A stretch of DNA of 64,000 bases from Gemmatimonadota bacterium (GTDB taxonomy: Bacteria > JAAXHH01): the NCBI GenBank assembly GCA_009837395.1, contig VXTP01000033.1, positions 60,428 to 124,427 on the forward strand. The letters are read 5' to 3'. Positions within the stretch are counted from its first letter, which is position 1. Each line of letters starts with the position of its first letter. Below are positions 43,493-58,083 of this stretch, piece after piece. The position numbers were made by a program, and so were the translations under genes. The notes below the pieces were generated by a model that had not been told where the DNA came from, did not search any database, and worked only from the letters and a program-made list of their open reading frames with translations.

Positions 43493-45634
43493 TCAGCTGC
43501 CGCCTGCCTGTTCCTCGTACTCGTATACGATCCTGATCGCCCGGATGTTCGCGATCTTGAAGACGTGTACGTCGCCCTCGGGGATGCGGTGCGCCTCGAT
43601 GAAGGGCGTGCCCCGGGTCCGTTCGATGCGGATGGGCTTGATCCGGTGCAGGAAGCTGCGGCTTCGATTGCCCAGGTAGTATTCGATGACGGCCCGGTGG
43701 TTGTTCTTCACCGCCATTTCCAGGAGTTCTTCCGTCTGCCCGGGAGACAGATACTGCAGGTTGGCGGCCTGCTCGATGTGCGGTGCGTTCCGGTCGGCTC
43801 CGCCCGATCCCCGGTGCAGCTGATAACCGGGCAGGCAGTCCCCGAATCCGAGGACCGGTTTTCGTTCGGATTCAGGGGGTGCAGGCTGCGCGCCGTCCGC
43901 GGGAGAATCGTTTCGGTCGGAATGGCCGCTTCGGTCGGAATGGCCGCTTCGGTCGGAATGGCCGCTTCGGTCGGAGTGATCGCTTCGGCCGGGTTGGCCG
44001 CTTTGCTCCCGCGGTTCTTTTGGGTCTGAACGCAGGCCGTTCCCGTTGCCGGACCGGGCACGCTGGGTCGCATCTCCGGCTTTGGGACCCGAAGTGGCCT
44101 CCGCTGGTCCGACGATCCCCGACCTCGGCATGTAGCCCTGTTTCTGCAGCAGGTCCATCAGTTCCCGGTACGTCTTGCGCTCCACGATGAGCGCGTCGGG
44201 CGCCACCTCGCCCTTGATGTATGGCGCGAGTTCCCCGTGGGCCTTGATGTGGCTGGCGATCTCGGCGCTGGCGGTCCGGAGGAGAAAGGTCTCCATGAAG
44301 TACACCTGGCCGTACGCATCGCCCCACGACTGGATCGAGTACGCGACGTTCTGGGGCACGTCCTTCTCGGAATGGTCCGCCAGGAAACCGTTGACGTCCG
44401 CGCCGGACATGTCCGTGTTGGCGGCCCGGTAGATGGTATCGCGGGTAACCCGGTAGGTCAGCGTGAGATCGACCTTTTCGAGGTCGGCGAAGCGTTCGAG
44501 CTTTTCCCGGATCCTCAGGTCCAGGTCCCGGGGCGCGATGATCTCGAAAGTGGGCTGGACGACGAACCCCGTGCTCCAGGCCTCCTCGTCCAGCCAGTCC
44601 TGCCCGCCGAGCACGTGCCGTCCCGCCGGCGTGATCACCAGGCCGCCGCCGTCCCCGTTCCTGCCGTCGTACTGACGCAGGAGGCCGATCCATTCGAGCT
44701 CGCGCAGCGCGGCGAGGATCTCCGCTCTTTCCTCGTCACTAAAGGCATCCGTCCGCACGTGGGGAGAGGAACAGGTCAGTACGCAGCGCAGGATCTGGTC
44801 CAGGTCCACCTGCGCGAAACCCACGCATAGTTGAAGGATGCCCGGCAGTGCGGATATCGCGGGAGAACGCGCCCGGTCCCGGGCGTGCCAGAAGGACAAC
44901 AGGTTCGCCAGTTTTTCCGTGGTGGGCTGCTCCAGCCACGACTCGAATTCACTGTCGGCGCGGAGGCGCCCGTCCTCTATGCGCGTCAGCCCGCGCCACT
45001 GCGCATAGTCCATGACGAAGCGCATCTGTTCGGGGGTTTCCTCCGCCGAGTCCGGCAAGCCGTTTATCACGGCTTCCTGCCGTTCCACCATGGCGTCGAG
45101 CGCCCGTTTGTAGGGCAGGCCCCGGTCCGTGAGCCGCGCCGGGTTGTGGCGCAGGCCGTTCACCAGGGCGAAGACGTTCCGGACCGCGGTAAGATCCCGG
45201 CTTTCATCGTCTTCCGATTTCGCCGCTTCCGTGGAGAAGATCCCCGCCAGCCGGTCCGTGAAATTGCGGATCAGCATGTCCCGGAGGTCTTCCGGCACGG
45301 TGAAGTCGACCGTGCGGTACGCCGGCCGCCGGCCGATCACGAGCCCCCGGTTCAGCAGTCCGTGGAGTTGTTCGATCAAACCGTCGTTGGAGGGTTTCCT
45401 CGTGTCGTAGACCCGTCCCGCCTCTCCGGCCGACAGTATGGCCAACAGGATCTCCCGGGCTTCTTCGCTCAGATCGTCCACGCACTGATCGATGTACCCC
45501 GGCTGGAAGACCTGGTCCGTGATTTCGCGGATCAGCCGGGCGCGGGAGATCATGCCGGGTTGCACGCCGAGGGTGACGGCCATGGATTTCAGGTCGTCCA
45601 TGGGCAGGGCGGCGAGGTAGTCCTGGAGGATCAA
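43493..45634 (-). CDS. helicase-associated (Helicase_C_3/XPB-Ssl2-like) domain protein with WYL-like C-terminus
   Basis: FVVQPTFEIIAPRDLDLRIREKLERFADLEKVDLTLTYRVTRDTIYRA..., C-term NHRAVIEYYLGNRSRSFLHRIKPIRIERTRGTPFIEAHR; TTG start chosen because the upstream ORF crosses the island boundary. Confidence 0.65.
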   Translation of the reverse strand: MILQDYLAALPMDDLKSMAVTLGVQPGMISRARLIREITDQVFQPGYIDQCVDDLSEEAREILLAILSAGEAGRVYDTRKPSNDGLIEQLHGLLNRGLVIGRRPAYRTVDFTVPEDLRDMLIRNFTDRLAGIFSTEAAKSEDDESRDLTAVRNVFALVNGLRHNPARLTDRGLPYKRALDAMVERQEAVINGLPDSAEETPEQMRFVMDYAQWRGLTRIEDGRLRADSEFESWLEQPTTEKLANLLSFWHARDRARSPAISALPGILQLCVGFAQVDLDQILRCVLTCSSPHVRTDAFSDEERAEILAALRELEWIGLLRQYDGRNGDGGGLVITPAGRHVLGGQDWLDEEAWSTGFVVQPTFEIIAPRDLDLRIREKLERFADLEKVDLTLTYRVTRDTIYRAANTDMSGADVNGFLADHSEKDVPQNVAYSIQSWGDAYGQVYFMETFLLRTASAEIASHIKAHGELAPYIKGEVAPDALIVERKTYRELMDLLQKQGYMPRSGIVGPAEATSGPKAGDATQRARSGNGNGLRSDPKEPREQSGQPGRSDHSDRSGHSDRSGHSDRSGHSDRNDSPADGAQPAPPESERKPVLGFGDCLPGYQLHRGSGGADRNAPHIEQAANLQYLSPGQTEELLEMAVKNNHRAVIEYYLGNRSRSFLHRIKPIRIERTRGTPFIEAHRIPEGDVHVFKIANIRAIRIVYEYEEQAGGS
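43912..44001 (-). repeat. 18-bp x5 in-frame tandem repeat (SDRSGH units)
   Basis: ttcggtcggaatggccgc at 43912, 43930, 43948; diverged copies at 43966 and 43984. Confidence 0.95.
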
Positions 45635-45655
45635 GGGTTCATTCCCATTCGATGG
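45635..45655. repeat. island boundary direct repeat, att-like (left)
   Basis: gggttcattcccattcgatgg, identical to 56538-56558. Confidence 0.9.
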
Positions 45656-45806
45656 AGAGCGATGCTTGCACTGCGAATTCAGTGGTTTACTTGCTTGTAA
45701 CCGGAGCGAACGAGGTCGGCCATCTGCCGGCGAAATGCCGCCGGAAAGATACCATGGCATCCGGAAAAGTGGCACTCATATAGACACAGGAAGTTATACG
45801 TGTCCG

Positions 45807-46247
45807 CTAGACCGGGTCAACTCCATTCTCATGATGGTGGGTAACGGCGAACCGTTCAAACCGGTGGAGGTTCAATTCGGCAGGCAGTTCGAGGAGCACA
45901 CCCGCATCCCGGGAGGCTTTGGCCCATGCCAGGAGCAAGTCGTAATGCCACTGTTCCTGGAGGCCGCCAAACCACTGCATCCCCTCGGGCGAGATGACGC
46001 AGAAGACATTGGCCAGATCGCACGGACCAAGGCATCCGGAGATCGTCAATTGCACCGACCTGTTCAGTTTTTCTTCTTTCCACTGCTGCTTGAGCCAGTC
46101 GCGGGGAAAGGGCGGGAACCCCTTGTCTGTCTGGCCGCAGCAACAGCCTTCGCAGCACACGACCTGGCCAAGAACATGGCCCCGGCCCGTAGCCAATGCG
46201 TCGTGTCTGCGGAGTGATTCGCGGATGCGTTGGGTCTGAGCATTCAT
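45807..46247 (-). CDS. thioredoxin-fold (2Fe-2S) ferredoxin-like protein
   Basis: VVCCEGCCCGQTDKGFPPFP...LTISGCLGPCDLANVFCVIS Cys pattern; 4-bp overlap with upstream PepSY gene. Confidence 0.7.
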   Translation of the reverse strand: MNAQTQRIRESLRRHDALATGRGHVLGQVVCCEGCCCGQTDKGFPPFPRDWLKQQWKEEKLNRSVQLTISGCLGPCDLANVFCVISPEGMQWFGGLQEQWHYDLLLAWAKASRDAGVLLELPAELNLHRFERFAVTHHHENGVDPV

Positions 46248-47926
46248 GCTTTATTCGCGCGATGACGTTTACGGATGCGAAGCAGGCGCCGCCAGGACAC
46301 GATGACGGCGGTTGAAGAGAACAGGAAACCGGCGCTGCACAGCACGATCACCACCACATCCCAAACGGGGCGATTGTCGATGAGGAAGCCGAAGTCCAGA
46401 CTGTGAAGGCCGTTGTAAAGCCAGCGTTTCGCGCGCCCGGTCTCCGTGAGTTGATTGATCAGCTCACCGGTGGTGAGGTCGATGTGGTACCAGGTCGCGT
46501 TGGCATCATCGAAGCGCACCCGCAACACGGGTAGTGGACGCCACCGCTGGTGATGGGAGTAGTAGTAGAGATCGTAATCCGTAAGTCGTTCGATAGAGAC
46601 GGTCCGCTGGCCGGCCATGCCCCGCTTTATTTGCGCGAGGACGGATTCCTCAAGACTGCCCTGCTCCGATGGAGTCAGCAATTGACGTTGGCCGTCGCCG
46701 GTGACGGCATAGGCGTAGGGTGATCCACCCAGCCATTGCCACACCAGTTCGCGTGAATCTGGCGGGAAACTCAGGCCGCGACCAGACGGCATCTCCGGTC
46801 CGCGGCCGGGCAATTCGAAGACAGCCCCGGTCGGGTGGCTGCGGACGGTGGCGGCTGCGGCGAGTGCACCGGCATGGGTCGTAGCGACAGAGACCGCACC
46901 GACATGGGTCGTACCGGCAGAAACCGCACCGACATGGGTGGCGCCGACGTTTAGTGCGCCGTAGGTGGGTGTGTCCAGATAGGCGGCGAGGGCACCGACG
47001 GTGGGCGTGTTTCGGTAGGCGGCGAGTCGATCGCTAAAAGGAATGTCATCGTCAAACACCCCCCAGGGGTTCATCGACAGAAGTCCGCTGAGCAGGAAGG
47101 TGGTCAGCGGTATCAGGAAAATCAACCCCAGCACATGGTGTAGTTTCAGTGTGCCCCGGTAGGGGGTCACATCGCTGCCACGATAACGCCTGCGGAACCT
47201 CAGGCGCATGACGCCGACTACCGCGCCGGTGACGATGGATACCAGGCCGGCGAGTGAGAGCACCACGATCACCCAGTGCCAGACAGAGACATGCTGGCGG
47301 AGCTGCACCGGGTAGATCCAGTGCAGGTTCGCCCCCAGCCAGTTCCAGCCGCGTTCCAGCGCGCTGGTATCCCGCACCACTTCCCCGGTCACCGAGGAGA
47401 CATAGAGTTCAGTGCCCGCCGGATCGTTCAGCGCAACTGTGTGAAGCGGCCGGTGAGGATGGAGGCTGCTGGACACGGACCACTGGTCCACGAGCAGGAG
47501 CGCCTCGTGCTCCGGTTGTGCCGGCGAGAGGCCGGTTGCGTGGGCGTAAACCCGGCTTGCCTGAAGCGCGTCTTCAGCGCCTATCTCGCCGATCGCACCG
47601 CCGGTGTCGGCAAACAGACCGTGGTGCGTGCCATCACCCGTACGCATGAGCCAGGCGGGCCGTCCAAGCACGGTGGTAAGGCGCAGTTCCTCGATGGTCT
47701 GCGCAGGATCAAGGCGCTGCAACAGTTCAGCAGGTCCGATCCGCAGTTCATTCGGTTCGAGTTCCGGCAGTGCGGCGAGACGTTCCGCCCGCGTCAGTTG
47801 CGGAAAACCGACATACATCATCACCACGCCGGAGAAAAACCACATGGCCACGAGCAGGCACATGGAGATACCCAGCCATCGGTGGCCGAGATAGAGCCAG
47901 CGGCGGAAGTTTATGGCGCGCCTCAC
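46244..47926 (-). CDS. PepSY-associated transmembrane protein (GTG start overlapping the WD40 stop)
   Basis: FRRWLYLGHRWLGISMCLLVAMWFFSGVVMMYVGFP, LKLHHVLGLIFLIPLTTFLLSGLLSMNP, WHYIDLTTGELI...WLYNGLHSLDF. Confidence 0.85.
   Translation of the reverse strand: MRRAINFRRWLYLGHRWLGISMCLLVAMWFFSGVVMMYVGFPQLTRAERLAALPELEPNELRIGPAELLQRLDPAQTIEELRLTTVLGRPAWLMRTGDGTHHGLFADTGGAIGEIGAEDALQASRVYAHATGLSPAQPEHEALLLVDQWSVSSSLHPHRPLHTVALNDPAGTELYVSSVTGEVVRDTSALERGWNWLGANLHWIYPVQLRQHVSVWHWVIVVLSLAGLVSIVTGAVVGVMRLRFRRRYRGSDVTPYRGTLKLHHVLGLIFLIPLTTFLLSGLLSMNPWGVFDDDIPFSDRLAAYRNTPTVGALAAYLDTPTYGALNVGATHVGAVSAGTTHVGAVSVATTHAGALAAAATVRSHPTGAVFELPGRGPEMPSGRGLSFPPDSRELVWQWLGGSPYAYAVTGDGQRQLLTPSEQGSLEESVLAQIKRGMAGQRTVSIERLTDYDLYYYSHHQRWRPLPVLRVRFDDANATWYHIDLTTGELINQLTETGRAKRWLYNGLHSLDFGFLIDNRPVWDVVVIVLCSAGFLFSSTAVIVSWRRLLRIRKRHRANKA
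46866..47027 (-). repeat. in-frame tandem repeats, 30-bp x3 then 36-bp x2, in the PepSY gene
   Basis: gcaccg(g/a)catgggt... at 46866, 46896, 46926; 36-bp units at 46956 and 46992. Confidence 0.85.
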
Positions 47927-48969
47927 CAGTTCTTCACTCTCCAGACCGTCACGCCGCCCTGCGCATCGAGCGCGGCGAGGGCACCCCCGTCCGGCCGCCA
48001 ATACACGTCGGAAACGACATCCGCCAGATACCCGCTCCCTATGGAACGACCTTCGCCGTCATGCTGAAGCGACCAGGCCACGACGGCCCCATCGCGGCCT
48101 CCCGAAGCCAGCCACAACGCGCCGGGAGCAAAGGAAAGCGTCGTGATGGGTTGAACATGATATTCCAGCACGCCGGGCCGCGTGCCTTCTGGACCCTGCC
48201 CCCGAAAGCTCCAGACCGTCACCGTTTCCCCTCCGCCGGTGGCCAGGAGGGTACCGGTGCCATCGAAAGCCAGGGCCGACGGCTTGCCCGGATAGCCGGA
48301 CATCATGGAGTCCTTTCCCGTGTCGCGGCGCCAGAAGTGCACCGAGTTGTCCTGGCTGCCGCAGGCCACGATGCCCCCGTCCGGGCTCAGAACCATGGAC
48401 ACCAGGGATCCCTGCCATTCCAGTTTCTGGTGAGGCTCGCCGGTGGACGCGTCAAAGAACGTCACGCGACCGTAACAGGCCGTCGCCAGCTCTGCCGCGC
48501 CAGACCACGCGACCGCGCTGACGGTGCTCGGATGGGCGTCCGATCGCCAGACCTCCGTGCCGTCCACGGTATATACGTAAACGTGCCTGGAGCAGGATAT
48601 CGCCAGCCACTGGCCGTCCGGCGACCACGCCACGTTTTCCACCCAGCTGTTTCCGACGTCGATCGCCTGGCTTACCTGGCCGTCGGCAGCCTGCCAGATC
48701 AAGGCGCGGCCGTCCTGCCCGGCCGTGGCGAAGGCGGTTCCGCCCGGATGGATCGCCGCCGCGAGCACGCCGCCCTCATGAACCTCGTGATGCGCCCACG
48801 CGGTCGCGCCGGACTTGCCGTCGAATGTGTAGACGCTACCCGCGGTGTCACCGATCACCAGGGCCTCACCGCGCAGGATCCAGCCCCCGGCGATGGGGTA
48901 ATCACCGACCGACGCGGACCAACCGTCGCGAATCACACCGCTCGGGTTGCCGACGTTCAGACCAGACAT
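47923..48969 (-). CDS. WD40 repeat beta-propeller protein
   Basis: Repeated blades: ISCSRHVYVYTVDGTEVWRSDAHPSTVSAVAWSGAAELATACYGRVTFFDASTGEP...; GSQDNSVHFWRRDTG; SGGRDGAVVAWSLQ. Confidence 0.88.
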   Translation of the reverse strand: MSGLNVGNPSGVIRDGWSASVGDYPIAGGWILRGEALVIGDTAGSVYTFDGKSGATAWAHHEVHEGGVLAAAIHPGGTAFATAGQDGRALIWQAADGQVSQAIDVGNSWVENVAWSPDGQWLAISCSRHVYVYTVDGTEVWRSDAHPSTVSAVAWSGAAELATACYGRVTFFDASTGEPHQKLEWQGSLVSMVLSPDGGIVACGSQDNSVHFWRRDTGKDSMMSGYPGKPSALAFDGTGTLLATGGGETVTVWSFRGQGPEGTRPGVLEYHVQPITTLSFAPGALWLASGGRDGAVVAWSLQHDGEGRSIGSGYLADVVSDVYWRPDGGALAALDAQGGVTVWRVKNW

Positions 48970-50303
48970 GCATTGAACCCTTGCCGCATGTCCTGCTCAT
49001 CGAGGTTGCGACCGATGAAAACGAGTTGGTTGTGGCGGGGATCGTCCCCCCATTCGCGATCCGGCTGGCCGTCAAAGAGCATATGAACTCCCTGAAAGAC
49101 GAAGCGACGGGACTCGCCCGCGAGGCTGATGAAGCCCTTCATCCGGAAGATGTCCACCCCCCGTTCACGGAGCAGTTCGCCCAGCCACATATTGAGCCGG
49201 TCGGGATCGACATCGCCCTCATGCTCGATGGCGATAGAACCCACTTCGTCGTCGTGCTCATGCTGTGCGACCCAGGTGCGTTCGACCTCATGCGCGATGG
49301 TCTCTCCGTCTGCGTTCCTCAACTGGATATCGAATTCATCCGCGGTGTGCTGGGTGAAGAGGCCGACCCGCGTCTGCCTGCCGACCTCCAGGAAGAAGGA
49401 CTTGCGCCCCGTGGAGTCGAGCTCGAGATTCACATGCTTCCCAACAGGAATCGCTTCGCCCGGGCCAAGGTCCTTCGCGGTTTCGGCATACCTGCGCACA
49501 CACCACTCCGCGCCTTCACGGAGGGCGGCGTCATCCGTGCCCTGGTCCGGCACGACGACGAGTGACATGGCCGGATCGGGCCCCTCGGCGAGACTGAGCT
49601 CGTATCGGCCGGCATCGAGCGTATAGACGCCCGTCCATTCAAACGGGTATTCGGGCTCGAGGAAAGTGGGACGACGCTCGAGCACATCGTCCAGGTCGAA
49701 GGCTTCGAGGTTGAGCACCGTGTCGACGGGAACCTCCGCCCGCTCGCTGCGCACGACTTTGGCCATTCGGTTCATTTCCCGGAGACGGGTTTCGAGCCGG
49801 TCGAGTACCTCGTCGTCGACGAGGTCCGTCTTGTTGAGCACCAGGACGTCCGCGAAGGCGATTTGCTCGGTGCTTTCGTCGCTTCGACCGAGCTGCTGCT
49901 CGATGTGGGCGGCATCGACGAGCGTGACGATCCCGTCAAGGGCGTACTCGTCGCGGATTTCGTCGTCCATGAAGAAGGTCTGGGCCACCGGACCGGGATC
50001 GGCGAGCCCCGTGGTCTCCACCAGCACATAGTCGAACTTGTCGCGGCGCTTCATGAGATTGCTGAGTACGCGGATGAGATCTCCGCGCACCGTGCAGCAG
50101 ATGCAGCCGTTCGACATCTCGAAGATTTCTTCGTCTGCGTCGATAACGAGCGCCTGATCGATGCCTACCTCCCCGTACTCGTTCTCGATCACGGCGATGC
50201 GCTTTCCGTGCTCCTCGGTCAGGATCCGGTTGAGCAGGGTCGTCTTCCCGGATCCGAGGAAACCGGTGAGGATGGAAACAGGTACTTTTTGCGGCGAGAT
50301 CAT
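48957..50303 (-). CDS. G3E GTPase, COG0523 (CobW/ZigA-type) putative metallochaperone
   Basis: [35 protein letters not shown] (CxCC), ETTGLADPGPVAQTFF, VLNKTDLV, CobW C-terminal domain. Confidence 0.92.
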   Translation of the reverse strand: MISPQKVPVSILTGFLGSGKTTLLNRILTEEHGKRIAVIENEYGEVGIDQALVIDADEEIFEMSNGCICCTVRGDLIRVLSNLMKRRDKFDYVLVETTGLADPGPVAQTFFMDDEIRDEYALDGIVTLVDAAHIEQQLGRSDESTEQIAFADVLVLNKTDLVDDEVLDRLETRLREMNRMAKVVRSERAEVPVDTVLNLEAFDLDDVLERRPTFLEPEYPFEWTGVYTLDAGRYELSLAEGPDPAMSLVVVPDQGTDDAALREGAEWCVRRYAETAKDLGPGEAIPVGKHVNLELDSTGRKSFFLEVGRQTRVGLFTQHTADEFDIQLRNADGETIAHEVERTWVAQHEHDDEVGSIAIEHEGDVDPDRLNMWLGELLRERGVDIFRMKGFISLAGESRRFVFQGVHMLFDGQPDREWGDDPRHNQLVFIGRNLDEQDMRQGFNACLV

Positions 50304-50315
50304 CTGGTTTCTCCT

Positions 50316-50621
50316 TTATGGGTTTGCTGGGTATTCGGGGACGGCCGCCGGGGTGTCGAAACCCCATGTCCTGCAGACCCGGACCAGGTCTTCGGCGTCC
50401 ACGGATTCAATGGACTTGTGCAGCTTGCACTGAAGCTGTGGCGCATCGGGCCGTAGCAGGCCGATCACGGTTTCGACAGGCGCGCAGCCTTCTTCGAGAC
50501 AAGCCAGTTCGGTGACCGTGACCGTCATGTCATCGGAAAGGCTCAGTGCTTCGCGCAATGCCTCCTTGATGTATCGGACCCGTTCGCGGTTCGGGCGACG
50601 GGGTGACGTGTTGATCAACAT
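50316..50621 (-). CDS. small conserved-looking Cys-rich protein in zinc operon
   Basis: TVTELACLEEGCAPVETVIGLLRPDAPQLQCKLHKSIESV; sandwiched between two G3E GTPase genes on the same strand. Confidence 0.7.
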   Translation of the reverse strand: MLINTSPRRPNRERVRYIKEALREALSLSDDMTVTVTELACLEEGCAPVETVIGLLRPDAPQLQCKLHKSIESVDAEDLVRVCRTWGFDTPAAVPEYPANP

Positions 50622-50661: not shown

Positions 50662-51882
50662 TCAGGCCGGCTCCTCGGCCATTTGAAGTTCCGGAAACGG
50701 ATTCGGGGCCTCAGCCCAGACCTTGCTGTCGGCGGCGGCGAGGCGCTCGTCGAGCAGGCACGCGTCGAGGCGTGCGCGTATCGTCTCCTCGTTCATCTGC
50801 TGGCCGATGAAGACCAGTTGCTGCGCGCGATCACCGAAGCGGGGATCCCAGCCCGGCTGCCGATCCGGCCGCTGATCCTCCGGATGCCCCCAGTGTTCGC
50901 GAGGTATGGCCGCCCACCACATCCCCAGGGGTTTCACGGTGCTGCCGCCGCCGGCCTGCGCCCACTCGTAGGCGACCCGATGGTCCGCGGCGACCCAGAA
51001 GAAGCCCTTCGAGCGGAGCACGCCGTACCAGTTCTCGTCGTCGTGCAGGAAGGCCCACAGCTTCTCGGCGTCGAAGGGCTGCGACGTCCGGTAGGTGAAG
51101 CTCGAGATCCCGTATTCTTCGGTCTCCGGCGTGTGTTCGCCCTGAAGCTCACGAATCCAGCCGGCGGAACTCTCCGCCTTCTCGTAGTCGAACAGGTTCG
51201 TGTCGAGCACGCGTTCGAGCGGGACCCTTCCATGCGTCGTCCTGAGGATCTCGGCGCCGGGGTTGAGCGCTTTCACGATGGCCTCGACCTCGAGCGCCTG
51301 TTCGTCGCTCACGAGATCGAGTTTGTTGAGCACGATGACGTCGGCGAACTCGATCTGGTCGGTGAGCAGATCGGTTACCGTCCGGTAATCTTCTTCACCC
51401 AGGGACTCACCGCGGTCCTGAAGCGCATCGGCGGCGGCGTAGTCCCGCAGGAAGCTCGCCGCGTCCACGACCGTGACCATCGTGTCGAGACGCGAAACCT
51501 GACTCAGGCTCACACCGTTCTCGTCCTCGAAGGTGAAGGTCTGCGCGACCGGAATGGGCTCCGAGATCCCAGTGGACTCGATGAGCAGGTAGTCGAAGCG
51601 TCTCTCCTGCGCGAGCCGTGCAACCTCGGCGAGCAGGTCGTCTCGCAGCGTGCAGCAGATGCAGCCGTTCGACATCTCGACCAGCTTCTCCTCGGTCCGC
51701 GAGAGCTGGGCACCGCTGTGCTCAACGAGCGCCGCGTCGATGTTGACCTCGCTCATGTCGTTGACGATGACCGCGACGCGCATGCCCTCGCGGTTGTTGA
51801 GCACGTTGTTGAGCAGCGAGGTTTTTCCGGCGCCGAGAAAGCCGGACAGGACGGTAACGGGTAGTTTTTCTGACAGGGGCAT
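50662..51882 (-). CDS. zigA: G3E GTPase, ZigA-type zinc metallochaperone
   Basis: [76 protein letters not shown]. Confidence 0.88.
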
Positions 51883-51946
51883 TGCTGTTCCTTCAGTCAT
51901 TGGGTGGTGAATCCGTCGAGCGAATTAGAATCGATAAGGGTTCATC

Positions 51947-52429
51947 TCAGTCCGTATCGTCTTTCTCCGAACTGCACTGTGCGCAGGTGCCCAGCAGTTC
52001 GACGACCGGTCGCCGGGTCCGGAATCCAATCTCCTTGCCCGCCGCATTCAGGCTCCTGGCCACGCTGGGGTCTTCAACTTCGGCGACCTCGCCGCAGTCG
52101 TCGCAGATCAGGAACTGGCCGGCGTGGGGATGATCCGGATGTGCACAGCCCACATAGGCGTTCAGGGTCTCGAGCCTGTGCACCAGGCCCTGCTCGAGCA
52201 GGAAATTCAATGCCCGGTAGACCGTCGGTGGCGCGGGATTCCGGACGACTCCGCGCATGCGCTCCAATAGGTCGTAAGCACTGAGCGGTTTTTCGGCTAC
52301 GCACAGCAGTTGAAGCGCGGCCTTGCGTTGTTCGGTCAGCCGCGCGCCGCGCTCACGGCACAGCACCTCGGCTCGTTCCAGTACCTGGGAAAGCGCTTTG
52401 TTATTCACAGGTCTCTCCTTCCCGATCAA
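51947..52429 (-). CDS. zur: Fur-family zinc uptake regulator
   Basis: RLTEQRKAALQLLCVAEKPLSAYDLLERM, PPTVYRALNFLLEQGLVHRLE, CAHPDHPHAGQFLICDDCGEVAEV, CAQC. Confidence 0.9.
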   Translation of the reverse strand: MIGKERPVNNKALSQVLERAEVLCRERGARLTEQRKAALQLLCVAEKPLSAYDLLERMRGVVRNPAPPTVYRALNFLLEQGLVHRLETLNAYVGCAHPDHPHAGQFLICDDCGEVAEVEDPSVARSLNAAGKEIGFRTRRPVVELLGTCAQCSSEKDDTD

Positions 52430-53355
52430 TCGCCCAGGGCGGCGACCAGTGTTCGGATGTTGTGCAACATCATGTCAAGGTGAGTATCAGCCGGTCCACC
52501 CGCCTTCGACAGCGCGTCGGAATAGAGCGTGCCGCCGATCTGTGCTCCGGTTTCACGGACGATCTGGTCGAGCAGGCGCCGGTCGGAGATGTTGTCGATG
52601 AAGACGGCCGGGATCTTTTCCCTGTTGATCTGACGTATCAGCCTGGCCACGTCGCCGGCGGACGGCTCCGCTTCGGTGCTGAAACCGACCGGGGCACGGA
52701 ACTCGATGCCGTAGGCTGCGGACAGATAGCCAAATGCGTCGTGGGAGGTGACCACCATGCGCCGTTCGGCCGGAAGCGACTCGATCGTCTCGCGTACCTG
52801 TGCCTCGACCGCGTCGATCTCCTCCATGTACCGCGTCGTGTTGCGGCGATAGGTCTCGGCCCCCGCCGGGTCGACCGCGGCCAATCCACCGGCGATGTTG
52901 CGGACATAGATCCGGGCGTTGTCCAGGCTCTGCCACGCATGGGGATCGATCTCGCGGTGGCCGCTTTCCCCTACCCAGAGGGGCTTGACGCCGGCGGTCG
53001 CCGTCACCACCCGTCCCTCGTACCCGGATGCCTTCGTCAGGCGGTCTATCCAGCCCTCAAAACCCAGTCCATTGACGACCAGCAACCTGGCTTCGGCGAC
53101 GGTCCGGGCGTCCGCCGGGGTCGGCTGATAAACGTGCGCGTCTTCGCCGGGACCGACGAGGGTGGTCACGTGCACCCGGTCACCGCCTATCTGCCGGACT
53201 ATATCACCCAGGATGCTGAACGACGCGACCACTTCGATGGAGGTGTCGGCCCGAGCGGTACCCGCCCCTGACACGGCGATCAAACAGGCGGCGAAGACAA
53301 AAGAGTGGAGAGATCGAATAAACAACTTGGCCCTTTCCTGGTTCATATCTGGCAT
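52426..53355 (-). CDS. znuA: zinc ABC transporter substrate-binding protein
   Basis: VVASFSILGDIVRQIGGDRVHVTTLVGPGEDAHVYQPTPAD, DPHAWQSLDNARIYVRNI, TSHDAFGYLSAAYGIEF. Confidence 0.92.
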   Translation of the reverse strand: MPDMNQERAKLFIRSLHSFVFAACLIAVSGAGTARADTSIEVVASFSILGDIVRQIGGDRVHVTTLVGPGEDAHVYQPTPADARTVAEARLLVVNGLGFEGWIDRLTKASGYEGRVVTATAGVKPLWVGESGHREIDPHAWQSLDNARIYVRNIAGGLAAVDPAGAETYRRNTTRYMEEIDAVEAQVRETIESLPAERRMVVTSHDAFGYLSAAYGIEFRAPVGFSTEAEPSAGDVARLIRQINREKIPAVFIDNISDRRLLDQIVRETGAQIGGTLYSDALSKAGGPADTHLDMMLHNIRTLVAALGD

Positions 53356-54221
53356 TATGCTTCCAGATGACGGCGTGGCCTGAGGTGCGTCATGATTACG
53401 CCGTCAGGCCCGAAGGACAGTGAGAACAGATAGAACGCCCCCGCCGTCAGGATGATGGCGGGGCCGGAAGGCAGACTGGCGTGATAGGACAACAACAGGC
53501 CGACATACCCACCCACAAAGGCCGCAAGCACACCGATGACCACCAGGGGCGTGAGATCCCGCGTCCAGAACCGGGCGGCAGCGGCGGGAAGGATCATGAT
53601 CCCAACCGCCATCAGGGTCCCCAGCGCATGAAACCCGCCCACCAGGTTGAACACCGCCAGCACGAGAAAACTGTAGTGGCCCACCGGGCTCAGGGAACTC
53701 ACCGAGCGGAGAAAGCCCGGGTCGAAACACTCCATCACCAATGGCCGGTAGAGGACAGCGAGCCCAAACAGGGTGACCGTGGCGATGCCCGCGACCAGGT
53801 ATATGGCCGCATCGTTCAATGCGAGCACCGTACCGAACAGGATGTGCAGCAGGTCGACGTTGCTGCCACGCGTCGAGACGATGACGACCCCGACGGCGAG
53901 GGAAATCAGATAGAAGGCGGCCAGGCTGGAATCCTCACGGGCCACGGTGGTGCGGGCCACCAGTCCGGAGAGCATGGCCACGGTCACCCCCGCGATCACA
54001 CCGCCGAGGGTCATGGCACCGAGCGACAGCCCCGCCACGAGGTATCCGAGCGCCGCGCCGGGAAGAATGGCATGGGCCATGGCATCCCCGGTCAGACTCA
54101 TCCGCCGCAGGGTCAGGAACACCCCGATGGGGGTAGCCCCCAGCGAAAGGGCAAGGCACCCGACCAGGGCCCGGCGCATGAAGCCGAATTCGACGAAGGG
54201 GGCGATGACGGCATCGTACAT
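53355..54221 (-). CDS. znuB: zinc ABC transporter permease
   Basis: MRRALVGCLALSLGATPIGVFLTLRRMSLTGDAMAHAILPGAALGYL; ABC-3 family. Confidence 0.9.
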   Translation of the reverse strand: MYDAVIAPFVEFGFMRRALVGCLALSLGATPIGVFLTLRRMSLTGDAMAHAILPGAALGYLVAGLSLGAMTLGGVIAGVTVAMLSGLVARTTVAREDSSLAAFYLISLAVGVVIVSTRGSNVDLLHILFGTVLALNDAAIYLVAGIATVTLFGLAVLYRPLVMECFDPGFLRSVSSLSPVGHYSFLVLAVFNLVGGFHALGTLMAVGIMILPAAAARFWTRDLTPLVVIGVLAAFVGGYVGLLLSYHASLPSGPAIILTAGAFYLFSLSFGPDGVIMTHLRPRRHLEA

Positions 54222-54270
54222 CACGCGTCCTCCATAGGAAAGTCCACCGGACTGGAGGGAACCCAGGCGT

Positions 54271-55020
54271 TCATCTGACGCATACGGCCGCTCCTTCGTC
54301 AAAGGCCTCGGTGAGACGGCGCGCATGGTCGAGATTCGCCGGGGAAAGGACGTCCTCCGTCGGTCCGGCGGCGATCTGCTCGCGGGCCAGCAGAAGGGTC
54401 TCGGGGAACTCCGACCGGACCTGGTCCAGGTCGTGCAGAACGGCGACCACTGTCCGCCGCTCCCGGTGCCAGCGGCGAATGAGCCCCTTGAGATCACGCA
54501 CCGTCGCCGAATCGATGGCCGTGAACGGTTCGTCCAGCAGGATCAGCCGAGCATCCTGGAGGAGCAGGCGGGCGAACAGGGCACGTTGCATCTGCCCCCC
54601 GGAGAGCGTGCCGATGGGGCGCCGCTCGAAACCACCCAGCCCCACGGTATCCAGGGCCTCGCCTACCATCCGGTCGCCTTCCCGTCCGAACCGACGGGAA
54701 GCCCCCCTTTGCCTCCACAGTCCCATGGCCACCACGTCGAAGACCGAGATCGGAAAGCTCCAGTCTATTTCGGCCTGTTGAGGGAGGTACGCGATTTCCG
54801 AAGGGTCGATCCCCGTCAACCTGATTGCACCGCCAAGTGGCGCGAGGCTGCCGATGGTCCCTTTGAGCAGCGTCGACTTCCCGGCGCCGTTAGGTCCCAC
54901 CACGGCGACGAGGGCACCGGCACGGATGGCGTAATCGAGATGATGGACCGCGGGATGGCGGTCGTATCCGAGGGTCAGATTGTCGAAACGCAAGATCGTG
55001 CTGTCCATTGTCGCACTCAT
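54271..55020 (-). CDS. znuC: zinc ABC transporter ATP-binding protein
   Basis: AVVGPNGAGKSTLLKGTIGSL, LSGGQMQRALFARLLLQDARLILLDEPFTAID. Confidence 0.92.
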   Translation of the reverse strand: MSATMDSTILRFDNLTLGYDRHPAVHHLDYAIRAGALVAVVGPNGAGKSTLLKGTIGSLAPLGGAIRLTGIDPSEIAYLPQQAEIDWSFPISVFDVVAMGLWRQRGASRRFGREGDRMVGEALDTVGLGGFERRPIGTLSGGQMQRALFARLLLQDARLILLDEPFTAIDSATVRDLKGLIRRWHRERRTVVAVLHDLDQVRSEFPETLLLAREQIAAGPTEDVLSPANLDHARRLTEAFDEGAAVCVR

Positions 55021-55127
55021 ATCAGGGCCCAGGCGACTGCGAACCACAGCAGTCCGGTGGCGACGCCGGCCAGCGCAATGCGTGCTCCGATGCCGGCTCG
55101 AAGAGGTGAAAATCCCGCTTTGTTCAT
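55017..55127 (-). CDS. 36-aa single-TM membrane protein, below the ORF-track size cutoff
   Basis: MNKAGFSPLRAGIGARIALAGVATGLLWFAVAWALI*; TGA overlaps the znuC ATG (ATGA). Confidence 0.6.
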   Translation of the reverse strand: MNKAGFSPLRAGIGARIALAGVATGLLWFAVAWALI

Positions 55128-55189: not shown

Positions 55190-56215
55190 TTACAAACCCA
55201 CTGCCGGTTTCAGTGCGAACGACGCGTTCAGCGCCCACAATCCCATCAGTACCAGAAAGGTGCCGCCGAGCGCACCCAGGCCGGCGCCGGCCAGCGTCCA
55301 CAGCGGTGACCGGTGAGCGACCACCGTACTCGCCCATGCCCGCGCCTCCGTCGCGATGATGGCCAGGACGACAATGGTGATCGCGGTACCTATGGACATG
55401 GCGATCACGGAGAGCGCGCCAAACCAGATCAGATCCATCGCGGTAGCGAGGATCAGCACAAACACGGCTCCGCTGCAGGGACGCAGTCCAATGGACAAAA
55501 CCACGCCAGCCGCCGCATGCCGGTTGCCGACCGTCTCGATCTCGGCCGCGCTGGGCATATGCCGGCAGGCGCTGCCCGCCCCGTGAACATGGCCGGCATG
55601 GTCGTGGCGGACTTCGCCGGTTACGCGCCGCAGACGTCGAACGCTTTCGGACAGGACGCCGGCCGCGCGTACCAGCAAGTAGAGTCCGACGAGGGCAAGC
55701 AAAGTGAAACTGGCCCGTGTCGCCCACAGTGATGCCGTATCCGTATCTATCGGCAGGCTCCCTGCCAATCCGATCGGCACGCACACCAGTAACAGTGCCG
55801 TCACGCCCTGAAGGAGCGCTGCCGCGGCTCCCATGGCGATACCTCGATTCAACCGGCTTCGTTGGGTCAACAGGTAGGTCGTCAACACGATCTTCCCGTG
55901 TCCGGGCCCCGCGGCATGCAATATACCGTAGAGAAAGCTCGTCAGCACCAAAGCCCAGCCGACGCCATCCGTGCCACGCAGCGATTCAAACTCCTGCATC
56001 AAGCCCATGAGGAATTCATTCTGCAATGCCCAGATCCAGAGCGCTACCTGGTCCCAGATCGCAACTCCCTGGCTGTTGTCGGCGTGACCATCACCCGTGG
56101 ATTGTTCGGCGGCGACATTCTCGACCGGCAGCATCGTTGTCGCGTGGATATCCATCGAGTACGCGACGGCACACAGGCATGCAAGAAAGAACCACATGTT
56201 GCAACTGACCCGCAT
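55190..56215 (-). CDS. NicO/RcnA-family nickel/cobalt-type transporter
   Basis: Signal peptide; LTSFLYGILHAAGPGHGKIVLTTYLLT, GVVLSIGLRPCSGAVFVLILATAMDL, His-rich loop RHDHAGHVHGAGSACRH. Confidence 0.88.
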   Translation of the reverse strand: MRVSCNMWFFLACLCAVAYSMDIHATTMLPVENVAAEQSTGDGHADNSQGVAIWDQVALWIWALQNEFLMGLMQEFESLRGTDGVGWALVLTSFLYGILHAAGPGHGKIVLTTYLLTQRSRLNRGIAMGAAAALLQGVTALLLVCVPIGLAGSLPIDTDTASLWATRASFTLLALVGLYLLVRAAGVLSESVRRLRRVTGEVRHDHAGHVHGAGSACRHMPSAAEIETVGNRHAAAGVVLSIGLRPCSGAVFVLILATAMDLIWFGALSVIAMSIGTAITIVVLAIIATEARAWASTVVAHRSPLWTLAGAGLGALGGTFLVLMGLWALNASFALKPAVGL

Positions 56216-56301
56216 CGAACAGTCACCTTTTAACAAACGGAATCCTGAGGTTGTTACCACCGCTATAGACAAAGACCAGTGTGCCGGTTGTCGTCATTTT
56301 T

Positions 56302-56319
56302 GTTATGTTATAACGTAAC
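56302..56319 (-). promoter_or_regulatory. Zur-box-like palindrome
   Basis: gttatgttataacgtaac, 16 of 18 positions symmetric; just downstream of the -10 of the zinc operon promoter. Confidence 0.75.
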
Positions 56320-56321
56320 GA

Positions 56322-56349
56322 ATAATAACTAAAAAAAGCACGTTGTCAA
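56322..56349 (-). promoter_or_regulatory. sigma70 promoter of the zinc operon
   Basis: Minus strand TTGACA (56349-56344), 16-nt spacer, TATTAT (56327-56322). Confidence 0.7.
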
Positions 56350-56537
56350 GCCCAAGATTGCCTGTTCCGTTAAAAGGCAGTCTGTGAAAGCTCGAACGTG
56401 CCGGAAAGTGCAGATTCGGTATGAAACAAGTCCGCTGTTATACGGATTTACGTGTGTTCTGGAATTTCCGAGTGCCAGCCGGAGTTGGAGAGGCGCCAAA
56501 CGGTGCTGGAGGGGGTCTCAGGACGAGTGCCGGACGT

Positions 56538-56558
56538 GGGTTCATTCCCATTCGATGG
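56538..56558. repeat. island boundary direct repeat, att-like (right), at the guaA 3' end
   Basis: gggttcattcccattcgatgg, identical to 45635-45655. Confidence 0.9.
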
Positions 56559-58083
56559 TGCCGGGTGGCTTGGAACTGAGGTCGTAGACCACGCGGTTTA
56601 CGCCTCGCACTTCGTTGATGATGCGGTTCGAAACGTGGGCCAGGAAGTCCGTGGGCAGGCGCGCCCAGTCGGCCGTCATGAAGTCCAGCGTGGTCACGGC
56701 CCGTAGGGCGATGACGCGCTCGTAGGTGCGGGCGTCGCCCATCACGCCGACGGTCTTGACCGGGAGCAGTACGGCCAGCGCCTGGGAGACTTCGTCGTAC
56801 AGGCCGGCCCGGCGCAGTTCGTCGATGAAGATCCTGTCCGCGTCCTGCAGCATGGCCACCCGCTCCCGGGTCACTTCACCGAGGACGCGGATACCCAGTC
56901 CCGGCCCCGGGAAGGGATGGCGGTTGATGATCTCGTCGGGCAGGCCGAGTTCCCGGCCCACGGTGCGCACCTCGTCCTTGAACAGGTTCCGCACCGGTTC
57001 CAGCAGTTCGAGTTCCAGATCGTCCGGCAACCCGCCCACGTTGTGGTGGGTCTTGATGACGCTGGCCGGGCCTTTCACGGAGGCGCTTTCGATCACGTCG
57101 GGGTAGAGGGTGCCCTGGGCCAGGATGTGGACGCCGCGCAGCGAGGTCAGTTCGCTTTCCAGGACGCGAATGAATTCGTCCCCGATGATCTTGCGCTTCT
57201 GTTCCGGTTCCTCCACGCCTTTCAGCCGGTCCAGGAACCGGTCCGAGGCGTCGACGAAGCGGAACCGGGCGTTGATGGTCCGTCGGTAGGTTTCCTCGAC
57301 CTCCCGGGCCTCGTCCTTCCTGAGCATGCCCGTGTCCACGAAGATGCAGGTGAGGCGGTCCCCGATGGCCCGGCCAATCAGCGCCGCCACGACCGAGGAA
57401 TCCACGCCGCCGCTGGCGAAGCAGGCCACGCGGCGCTCGCCCACGGTCTCCCGTATGGCGGCCAGGGCCTCGTCGATGAAGGTCTGCGGCGTCCAGCTTC
57501 CCTCGCAGCCGCATATGGCGAATACGAAGTTCTCCAGGATCTCGCGGCCCTGGACCGTGTGCACCACTTCCGGATGGAACTGCACGCCGTAGATCCGGCG
57601 TTCCGGATGGGCGACAGCGGCGATATGTCCGTTGTCGGAGCGGGCGATGACGTCGAAATCCGGCGGCGGCGCCTTGAGTTCGTCGCCGTGACTCATCCAG
57701 ACCGTCATGCGCTCCGGCAGGTCGCGGAACAGGGGCGTTTCGCCCGTCGTACGGATCCCTGCGTTGCCGTATTCCCGTGTTCCGGCGTGGGCGACCTCGC
57801 CTTCGTGGTAATGCCCCATGAGCTGCAGGCCGTAGCAGATCCCGAGGATCGGCCTGCCCGCCTCGAATATGGCCGGATCCGGATGGGGTGCGTCTTCCCC
57901 GTACACGCTGGCCGGACCGCCCGACAGGACGATGCCGGTGACGTTGCGCGCTGAGAGCTCGGACGCCGGCGTGTCATAGGGCAGCACCTCGCAATAGACG
58001 TGGCTTTCCCGTATGCGCCGCGCGATGAGTTGCGTGTACTGCGCGCCGAAATCGAGGATGGCAATCCAGTTCGAGTCAGCCAT
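56542..58083 (-). CDS. guaA: GMP synthase (glutamine-hydrolysing)
   Basis: AILDFGAQYTQLIARRIRESHVYCEV, ILGICYGLQLMGH, FASGGVDSSVVAALIGRAIGDRLTCIFVDTGMLRKDE, C-term PPGTIEWE. Confidence 0.97.
   Translation of the reverse strand: MADSNWIAILDFGAQYTQLIARRIRESHVYCEVLPYDTPASELSARNVTGIVLSGGPASVYGEDAPHPDPAIFEAGRPILGICYGLQLMGHYHEGEVAHAGTREYGNAGIRTTGETPLFRDLPERMTVWMSHGDELKAPPPDFDVIARSDNGHIAAVAHPERRIYGVQFHPEVVHTVQGREILENFVFAICGCEGSWTPQTFIDEALAAIRETVGERRVACFASGGVDSSVVAALIGRAIGDRLTCIFVDTGMLRKDEAREVEETYRRTINARFRFVDASDRFLDRLKGVEEPEQKRKIIGDEFIRVLESELTSLRGVHILAQGTLYPDVIESASVKGPASVIKTHHNVGGLPDDLELELLEPVRNLFKDEVRTVGRELGLPDEIINRHPFPGPGLGIRVLGEVTRERVAMLQDADRIFIDELRRAGLYDEVSQALAVLLPVKTVGVMGDARTYERVIALRAVTTLDFMTADWARLPTDFLAHVSNRIINEVRGVNRVVYDLSSKPPGTIEWE

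Follow-up and report, generated by a model that had tools for sequence, protein, structure and literature searches.

Two questions are raised by an operon of zinc-acquisition genes that carries both its own Fur-family regulator and, at its promoter, a palindrome of the Zur type: does this palindrome serve as the operator of that regulator, and how did operator, regulator and target genes come to lie together? We addressed both by analyzing the window, a 64-kb stretch of DNA with the operon on its minus strand, together with related genomes.

A Zur-like palindrome at a predicted promoter

Upstream of nicO, the minus strand reads TTGACA, 16 nt, TATTAT, the dinucleotide TC and then the 18-bp palindrome GTTACGTTATAACATAAC (hereafter the box), the whole running from 56349 down to 56302 and leaving 2 nt between the -10 hexamer and the box (Table 1). 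This is the arrangement, at the same coordinates, that the first-pass annotation of this DNA had described. With a score of 11 of 12, this promoter outranks the one other promoter-like site between 45400 and 56700. From the position of the -10 hexamer, transcription is predicted to start 6-8 nt downstream, at about 56314-56316, which lies within the box and is consistent with the earlier estimate of about 56315.

When recomputed, 16 of the 18 box positions are symmetric, as previously counted. This symmetry proves nothing alone, because the 64 kb hold 14 windows that are symmetric at 16 or more of 18 positions, and we rejected it as evidence for a Zur box. Five such windows lie between 45 and 57 kb, so the earlier statement that the box is the only such palindrome fails for palindromes generally; it stands for Zur-like sequence, of which the box is the single match. 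Only 0.01 matches to the box sequence with at most three mismatches are expected in the window by chance, and the sole matches found are the two strand readings of the box itself. The first-pass annotation had also proposed a genome-wide search for further copies: pattern searches of the 3.8-Mb genome found no second site at up to three mismatches, and a looser pattern for further Zur sites yielded only 3-mismatch matches, at a rate no higher than that of a reversed control.

The box fits several published descriptions of Zur sites. The core of the general proteobacterial Zur motif, GTTA-5N-TAAC (PMC4176598), occurs in it twice, in overlapping positions (56302-56314 and 56307-56319). Crystallographic work on E. 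coli Zur has provided a rule for the binding of two dimers, RNNNYRNNRYNNYRNNNY / TGWNAYRWTATAWYRTNWCA (PMC4219657); the box matches the first pattern at 18/18 positions and the second at 19/20, with the next best sites in the window reaching 16/20. It also shares half-sites with Zur sites of Paracoccus denitrificans at zur/znuA and aztA, which form another published definition (PMC5387054; for example GTAATGTAATAACAT and GTTACGATATAACAT). Moreover, the promoter that it overlaps is that of zinc-acquisition genes, with nicO-aztABC-zur-zigA downstream. These fits bear out the earlier assignment of the box to the Zur class. In the literature that we searched, we found no mention of the exact 18-mer palindrome.

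The operon and its regulator

Eleven genes lie behind the box: nicO, aztA, aztB, aztC, zur, zigA, a gene for a 101-aa protein, a second COG0523 gene, and genes for WD40, PepSY and cysteine-rich proteins. The nicO gene more likely starts at an ATG with a ribosome-binding site near 56215, which would give a leader of about 100 nt, and the true start of aztB is probably nearer 54270. The 146-aa cysteine-rich protein at the end of the operon looks to us like one of the DUF1636 kind. Several neighboring genes overlap by a few bases and intergenic gaps are near zero, from which we infer one transcript that includes zur; autoregulation of zur would then be the simple reading, and a review links such autoregulation to the presence of zur in an operon (PMC6103462). 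Minor promoters could lie in the zur-zigA and nicO-aztA gaps.

Table 1. Positions of the promoter, predicted operator, operon genes and island boundaries in the window
Feature	Position	Strand	Remarks
-35 hexamer TTGACA	56344..56349	minus	TTGAC retained in 10/10 aligned loci
-10 hexamer TATTAT	56322..56327	minus	16-nt spacer to -35
Predicted Zur operator GTTACGTTATAACATAAC	56302..56319	minus	18 bp, 16/18 symmetric; two overlapping GTTA-N5-TAAC half-site pairs
nicO-family metal permease (PF03824)	55190..56272	minus	
aztA/znuC-type zinc ABC ATPase	54271..55047	minus	NF040873 above cut-off
aztB/znuB-type permease	53355..54497 (ORF)	minus	below curated cut-off
aztC/znuA-type zinc-binding protein	52426..53355	minus	below curated cut-off
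zur, Fur-family zinc sensor, 160 aa	51947..52429	minus	overlaps znuA stop
zigA, COG0523 zinc GTPase	50662..51900	minus	NF038288 above cut-off
101-aa protein, conserved in island, between the two COG0523 genes	50316..50621	minus	no Pfam/NCBIfam match
Second COG0523/CobW-family GTPase	48957..50303	minus	
WD40 beta-propeller protein	47923..48969	minus	
PepSY-associated membrane protein	46244..48001	minus	
146-aa cysteine-rich protein, last island gene	45807..46247	minus	no family match
guaA (GMP synthase), host gene	56542..58083	minus	island in its 3' end
attL-like direct repeat, last guaA bases + CCC, CCATCGAATGGGAATGAACCC	56538..56558	minus	
attR-like direct repeat, exact 21-bp copy of guaA end	45635..45655	minus	far island boundary
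Helicase_C_3 host gene	43493..45775	minus	directly behind guaA in island-free congeners

The first-pass annotation had placed zur itself inside the operon, and the Fur-family protein encoded there is, to judge by its residues, a true Zur. The closest solved structures, 7dh7 (1e-33) and E. coli Zur 4mtd (1e-30), are both Zur-type; 7dh7 was deposited as a "Fur family" regulator, and we believe it to be Xanthomonas Zur. All eight zinc ligands named for Zur (PMC4219657) are retained relative to the E. coli protein: the structural Cys103, Cys106, Cys143 and Cys146, and the regulatory His77, Cys88, His96 and Glu111 (E. coli numbering). Also retained are the base readers Tyr45 and Arg65, which correspond to Tyr52 and Arg72 of the island Zur, as well as Arg23, Thr25, Gln27, Arg28 and Tyr64. 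In contrast, the cooperativity pair Asp49-Arg52, a linker reported as enterobacterial/actinobacterial (PMC6103462), is Glu plus Arg here, and the two-dimer cooperativity of the island Zur is uncertain because Asp49 is Glu. The curated NCBIfam Zur model NF008646 has a cut-off of 167 bits, which the protein misses with 132 bits, and no other Fur-family model comes close; since this cut-off was set for one equivalog group, the functional assignment stands while the curated name is not earned. Besides the island Zur, no PF01475 protein was found in the 95.6% complete genome, so the usual rival, Fur or PerR acting at the box, falls away.

Box and Zur across the genus and at zinc genes elsewhere

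We next compared eleven other genomes of the genus (G001-G011). Zur and the box are both present in six of these (G001, G002, G003, G007, G009 and G010), and neither box, Zur nor AztC was found in G004, G005, G006 and G008. In the last, G011, the island is split between two contigs: one breaks off after the box, nicO, aztA and part of aztB, and the other holds the remainder. We rejected G011 as an exception with a box but no Zur: the first contig ends inside aztB and the second starts inside cobW2, so zur falls in the assembly gap. Every congener with the island has the box, and none without the island has it.

We also looked for box-like sites in 56 other loci, taken from gamma- and alphaproteobacteria and covering Zur relatives down to about 37% identity. 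These hold 33 sites within four mismatches of the palindrome, 22 of which lie at most 250 bp upstream of znuA, zur or COG0523 genes (background 6.7% of positions, p ~ 1e-18), in a set whose loci are partly interrelated and whose gene starts were taken from tblastn matches. By comparison, each of 20 shuffled control palindromes gave at most two near-zinc-gene sites. The other 11 sites include one about 320 bp before nicO and four before members of a shared family of ~220-aa proteins. In Chromatiales-type genomes, Zur-box-like sites precede this family in L008 (position 2376), L009 (2775), L010 (126) and L018 (3661), suggesting that it is likely another Zur target; we take the family to be DUF1826, a known Zur companion.

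These comparisons bear on whether the protein that binds the palindrome could be a different member of the Fur family (Fur, Mur, Nur or PerR) or an unrelated dimeric repressor, with a link to Zur that is positional only. Boxes of the Fur family are all AT-rich palindromes, and symmetry of the degree seen in the box is common in the window. Nonetheless, we consider such a regulator very unlikely: the 95.6% complete genome yielded no second PF01475 protein, the central TATA-type core and the spacing fit the Zur rule at 18/18 positions, box and Zur are jointly present or absent across the genus, and the same motif precedes zinc genes in other bacteria.

Conservation of the box

To the congeners we added two loci labelled Gemmatimonadota from outside the congener set, L004 and L012, giving an alignment of ten loci upstream of nicO (the window, seven congeners and these two). 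In 18-column windows, conservation of the intergenic region peaks in two places, at the box (mean column identity 0.956) and at the -35 block (0.944), with the remainder at 0.69-0.71; within the genus, much of this conservation is common descent. The distance from the -35 hexamer to the box is 22, 24, 28 or 33 nt, so spacer DNA was gained or lost while both elements stayed. The -10 hexamer is weaker in G003 (TGTTAT). In L004 and L012 the box is a perfect palindrome, GTTATGTTATAACATAAC, within flanks that differ. Separately, a block reaching about 10 nt upstream of the -35 hexamer, AATCTTGGGCTTGACA (about 56344-56375), is conserved nearly as well as the box across the ten loci, and is possibly an extended -35 element or a second site.

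Given this pattern, a box without a role, whether an AT-rich palindrome arisen by chance or a leftover of recently shared DNA, is highly improbable. The intergenic region is indeed AT-rich (GC 0.49 versus 0.64 for the genome) and the congeners are closely related, but 14 of the 18 box columns are invariant compared with 26 of 200 upstream and 11 of 140 downstream; the neighboring spacer and leader have altered in both sequence and length around an unchanged box, which is kept in L004 and L012 despite their different flanks. That an RNA element rather than the box should be the main control, acting from the ~100-nt leader between predicted start and likely ATG, is scarcely credible and was rejected: the leader folds no better than shuffled sequences (z = 0.35) and is poorly conserved.

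Overall, the box is very likely the operator of the island's own Zur and would repress the eleven-gene zinc operon, zur included. The first-pass reading of a Zur site at an operon containing zur is very probably right, with the fit to published Zur sites, the footprint of box and promoter, the co-occurrence of box and Zur, the conserved ligands and base readers of a regulator that is the sole Fur-family protein found in the genome, and the motif's enrichment at zinc genes all pointing to it. In the mechanism that we propose from sequence, zinc-loaded Zur, probably as two dimers on the 18-bp site, would cover the start region just behind the -10 hexamer and block transcription of all eleven genes. 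When zinc is scarce, Zur would release the DNA, allowing the uptake transporter, the NicO permease and the COG0523 GTPases to be made; Zur itself would rise as well, as expected of negative autoregulation. This one operon seems to make up the entire regulon of the island Zur.

A zinc island at the 3' end of guaA

The zinc operon makes up 10.9 kb between exact 21-bp direct repeats, one at the end of guaA and one at the far boundary. In G004, G006 and G008 the empty site is visible, with guaA joined directly to the Helicase_C_3 gene a few bases after its stop; G005 is too fragmented to show it. The 3' end of guaA is a known island hotspot with the core GAGTGGGA (PMC7775301, PMC9376610), and the repeat core reads GAATGGGA in the window and exactly GAGTGGGA in the attR of G003 and G011. 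We found no integrase or transfer genes among the eleven island genes, a P4-type integrase (with alpA) included. The island would be a decayed or integrase-less one, with its mobility historical because no integrase is present, and site-specific recombination is the presumed route of entry.

The insertion encloses the promoter region, so the genes brought their operator with them; operator, sensor and transporter genes seem to have entered jointly as a single mobile block. With promoter, operator, sensor and targets all contained in the 10.9 kb, they would have moved as one self-regulated unit. Both the bounding of the island by a direct repeat of the guaA end and the arrival of the operator with it go beyond the first-pass annotation.

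The Helicase_C_3 host gene, now separated from guaA by the island, may depend on read-through from the island or on a new promoter. One candidate for driving the displaced gene is a promoter-like TTGACC-16-TATAAC where the last island gene ends (45793-45820, minus strand), which is kept in G003 and G010 and not in G001 and G011. Between guaA and the island promoter lies a weak terminator-like hairpin (56431-56446), whose counterpart in G001, G009 and G011, with a T run and a more clear-cut G+C-rich stem, would insulate the zinc operon from guaA transcription.

Origin of the island

We next built a tree of 63 Zur proteins (155 columns, a single protein). The eight Zurs of the island hosts group together (98/92), and their group falls among Chromatiales-type Gammaproteobacteria, closest to symbionts of the Candidatus Thiodiazotropha type; some inner branches are weak. 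Among relatives sampled from the same family or order, none was found to have a Zur. Public records disagree on the host genus, one giving Gemmatimonadetes and others Latescibacterota, making its phylum uncertain; none of the records is labelled Proteobacteria. Transfer from a gammaproteobacterium is the likeliest reading, for which one protein of 155 columns is thin evidence. Regarding labels, the closely related island-bearing contigs L002, L003 and L035 carry conflicting assignments to Gemmatimonadetes or Candidatus Latescibacterota, at least one of which is doubtful. A further contig, L016 (3.9 kb, labelled Phycisphaeraceae), encodes a Zur nearly identical to a Chromatiaceae one from the similarly named bin L017, and is probably mis-binned.

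We lean towards a model in which a complete one-operon Zur regulon travelled in a guaA-integrating island from a Chromatiales-type gammaproteobacterium to host-associated bacteria of another phylum. There it would be the only Fur-family control circuit, and would work at once because its own operator comes along. Alternatively, the zinc operon could be old in the lineage, inherited vertically and lost in some congeners, with the 21-bp repeat incidental. Such a history would suit an island that sits at the same site in all congeners carrying it, has no integrase and is not marked by GC (0.626 versus 0.634 and 0.657 in the flanks). We regard it as unlikely, since the exact copy of the guaA end stands precisely at the far boundary, the site is a known hotspot whose exact core recurs in two congeners, Zur was not found in the sampled same-family or same-order relatives, and the Zur tree is nested in Gammaproteobacteria.

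Discussion

Our literature search turned up no paper dealing with a guaA-located zinc island or with a Latescibacterota Zur. Among the closest known systems are operons of the Chromatiales-type symbionts L008 and L010 (Candidatus Thiodiazotropha), which have the same nicO-aztABC-zur order with proteins 66-84% identical (Zur, 77-79%); there, however, no guaA match lies within the flank covered, and box-like sites precede other genes. In insertion site, the island resembles the guaA islands ICERspD18B and GIsul2, which likewise have a bounding repeat with a GARTGGGA core and an empty site in relatives (PMC7775301, PMC9376610). Unlike these, it has no integrase or transfer genes, and what it carries is zinc uptake under a regulator and operator of its own, not resistance.

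As for the regulatory circuit, the box matches the two-dimer pattern derived from the structure of the E. coli znuABC operator with two Zur dimers (PDB 4mtd; PMC4219657); the regulon is dispersed in E. coli, whereas here a single operon holds everything, zur included. P. denitrificans Zur controls gene types like those found here, an AztABC-type transporter and COG0523 genes, and is autoregulated (PMC5387054), but that genome has five strong Zur sites against one here; for AztD, part of the same comparison, no NCBIfam match was found in the island. The Zur regulon of Caulobacter crescentus has the same GTTA-N5-TAAC core (PMC4176598), with several dispersed targets, outer-membrane receptors among them, rather than one target operon.

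As a Zur box, then, the site is ordinary; its interest lies in a self-contained block of operator, sensor and targets at guaA, with one operator genome-wide. It offers a single testable operator for the zinc-starvation response of an uncultured lineage labelled Latescibacterota/Gemmatimonadota. More generally, it would illustrate how a trait under metal control can pass from one bacterium to a distant one with its switching intact, because the repressor gene is carried in the same block as the only site that it binds. Moreover, the presence or absence of this block at one chromosomal site within a genus provides a natural comparison for the worth of zinc scavenging.
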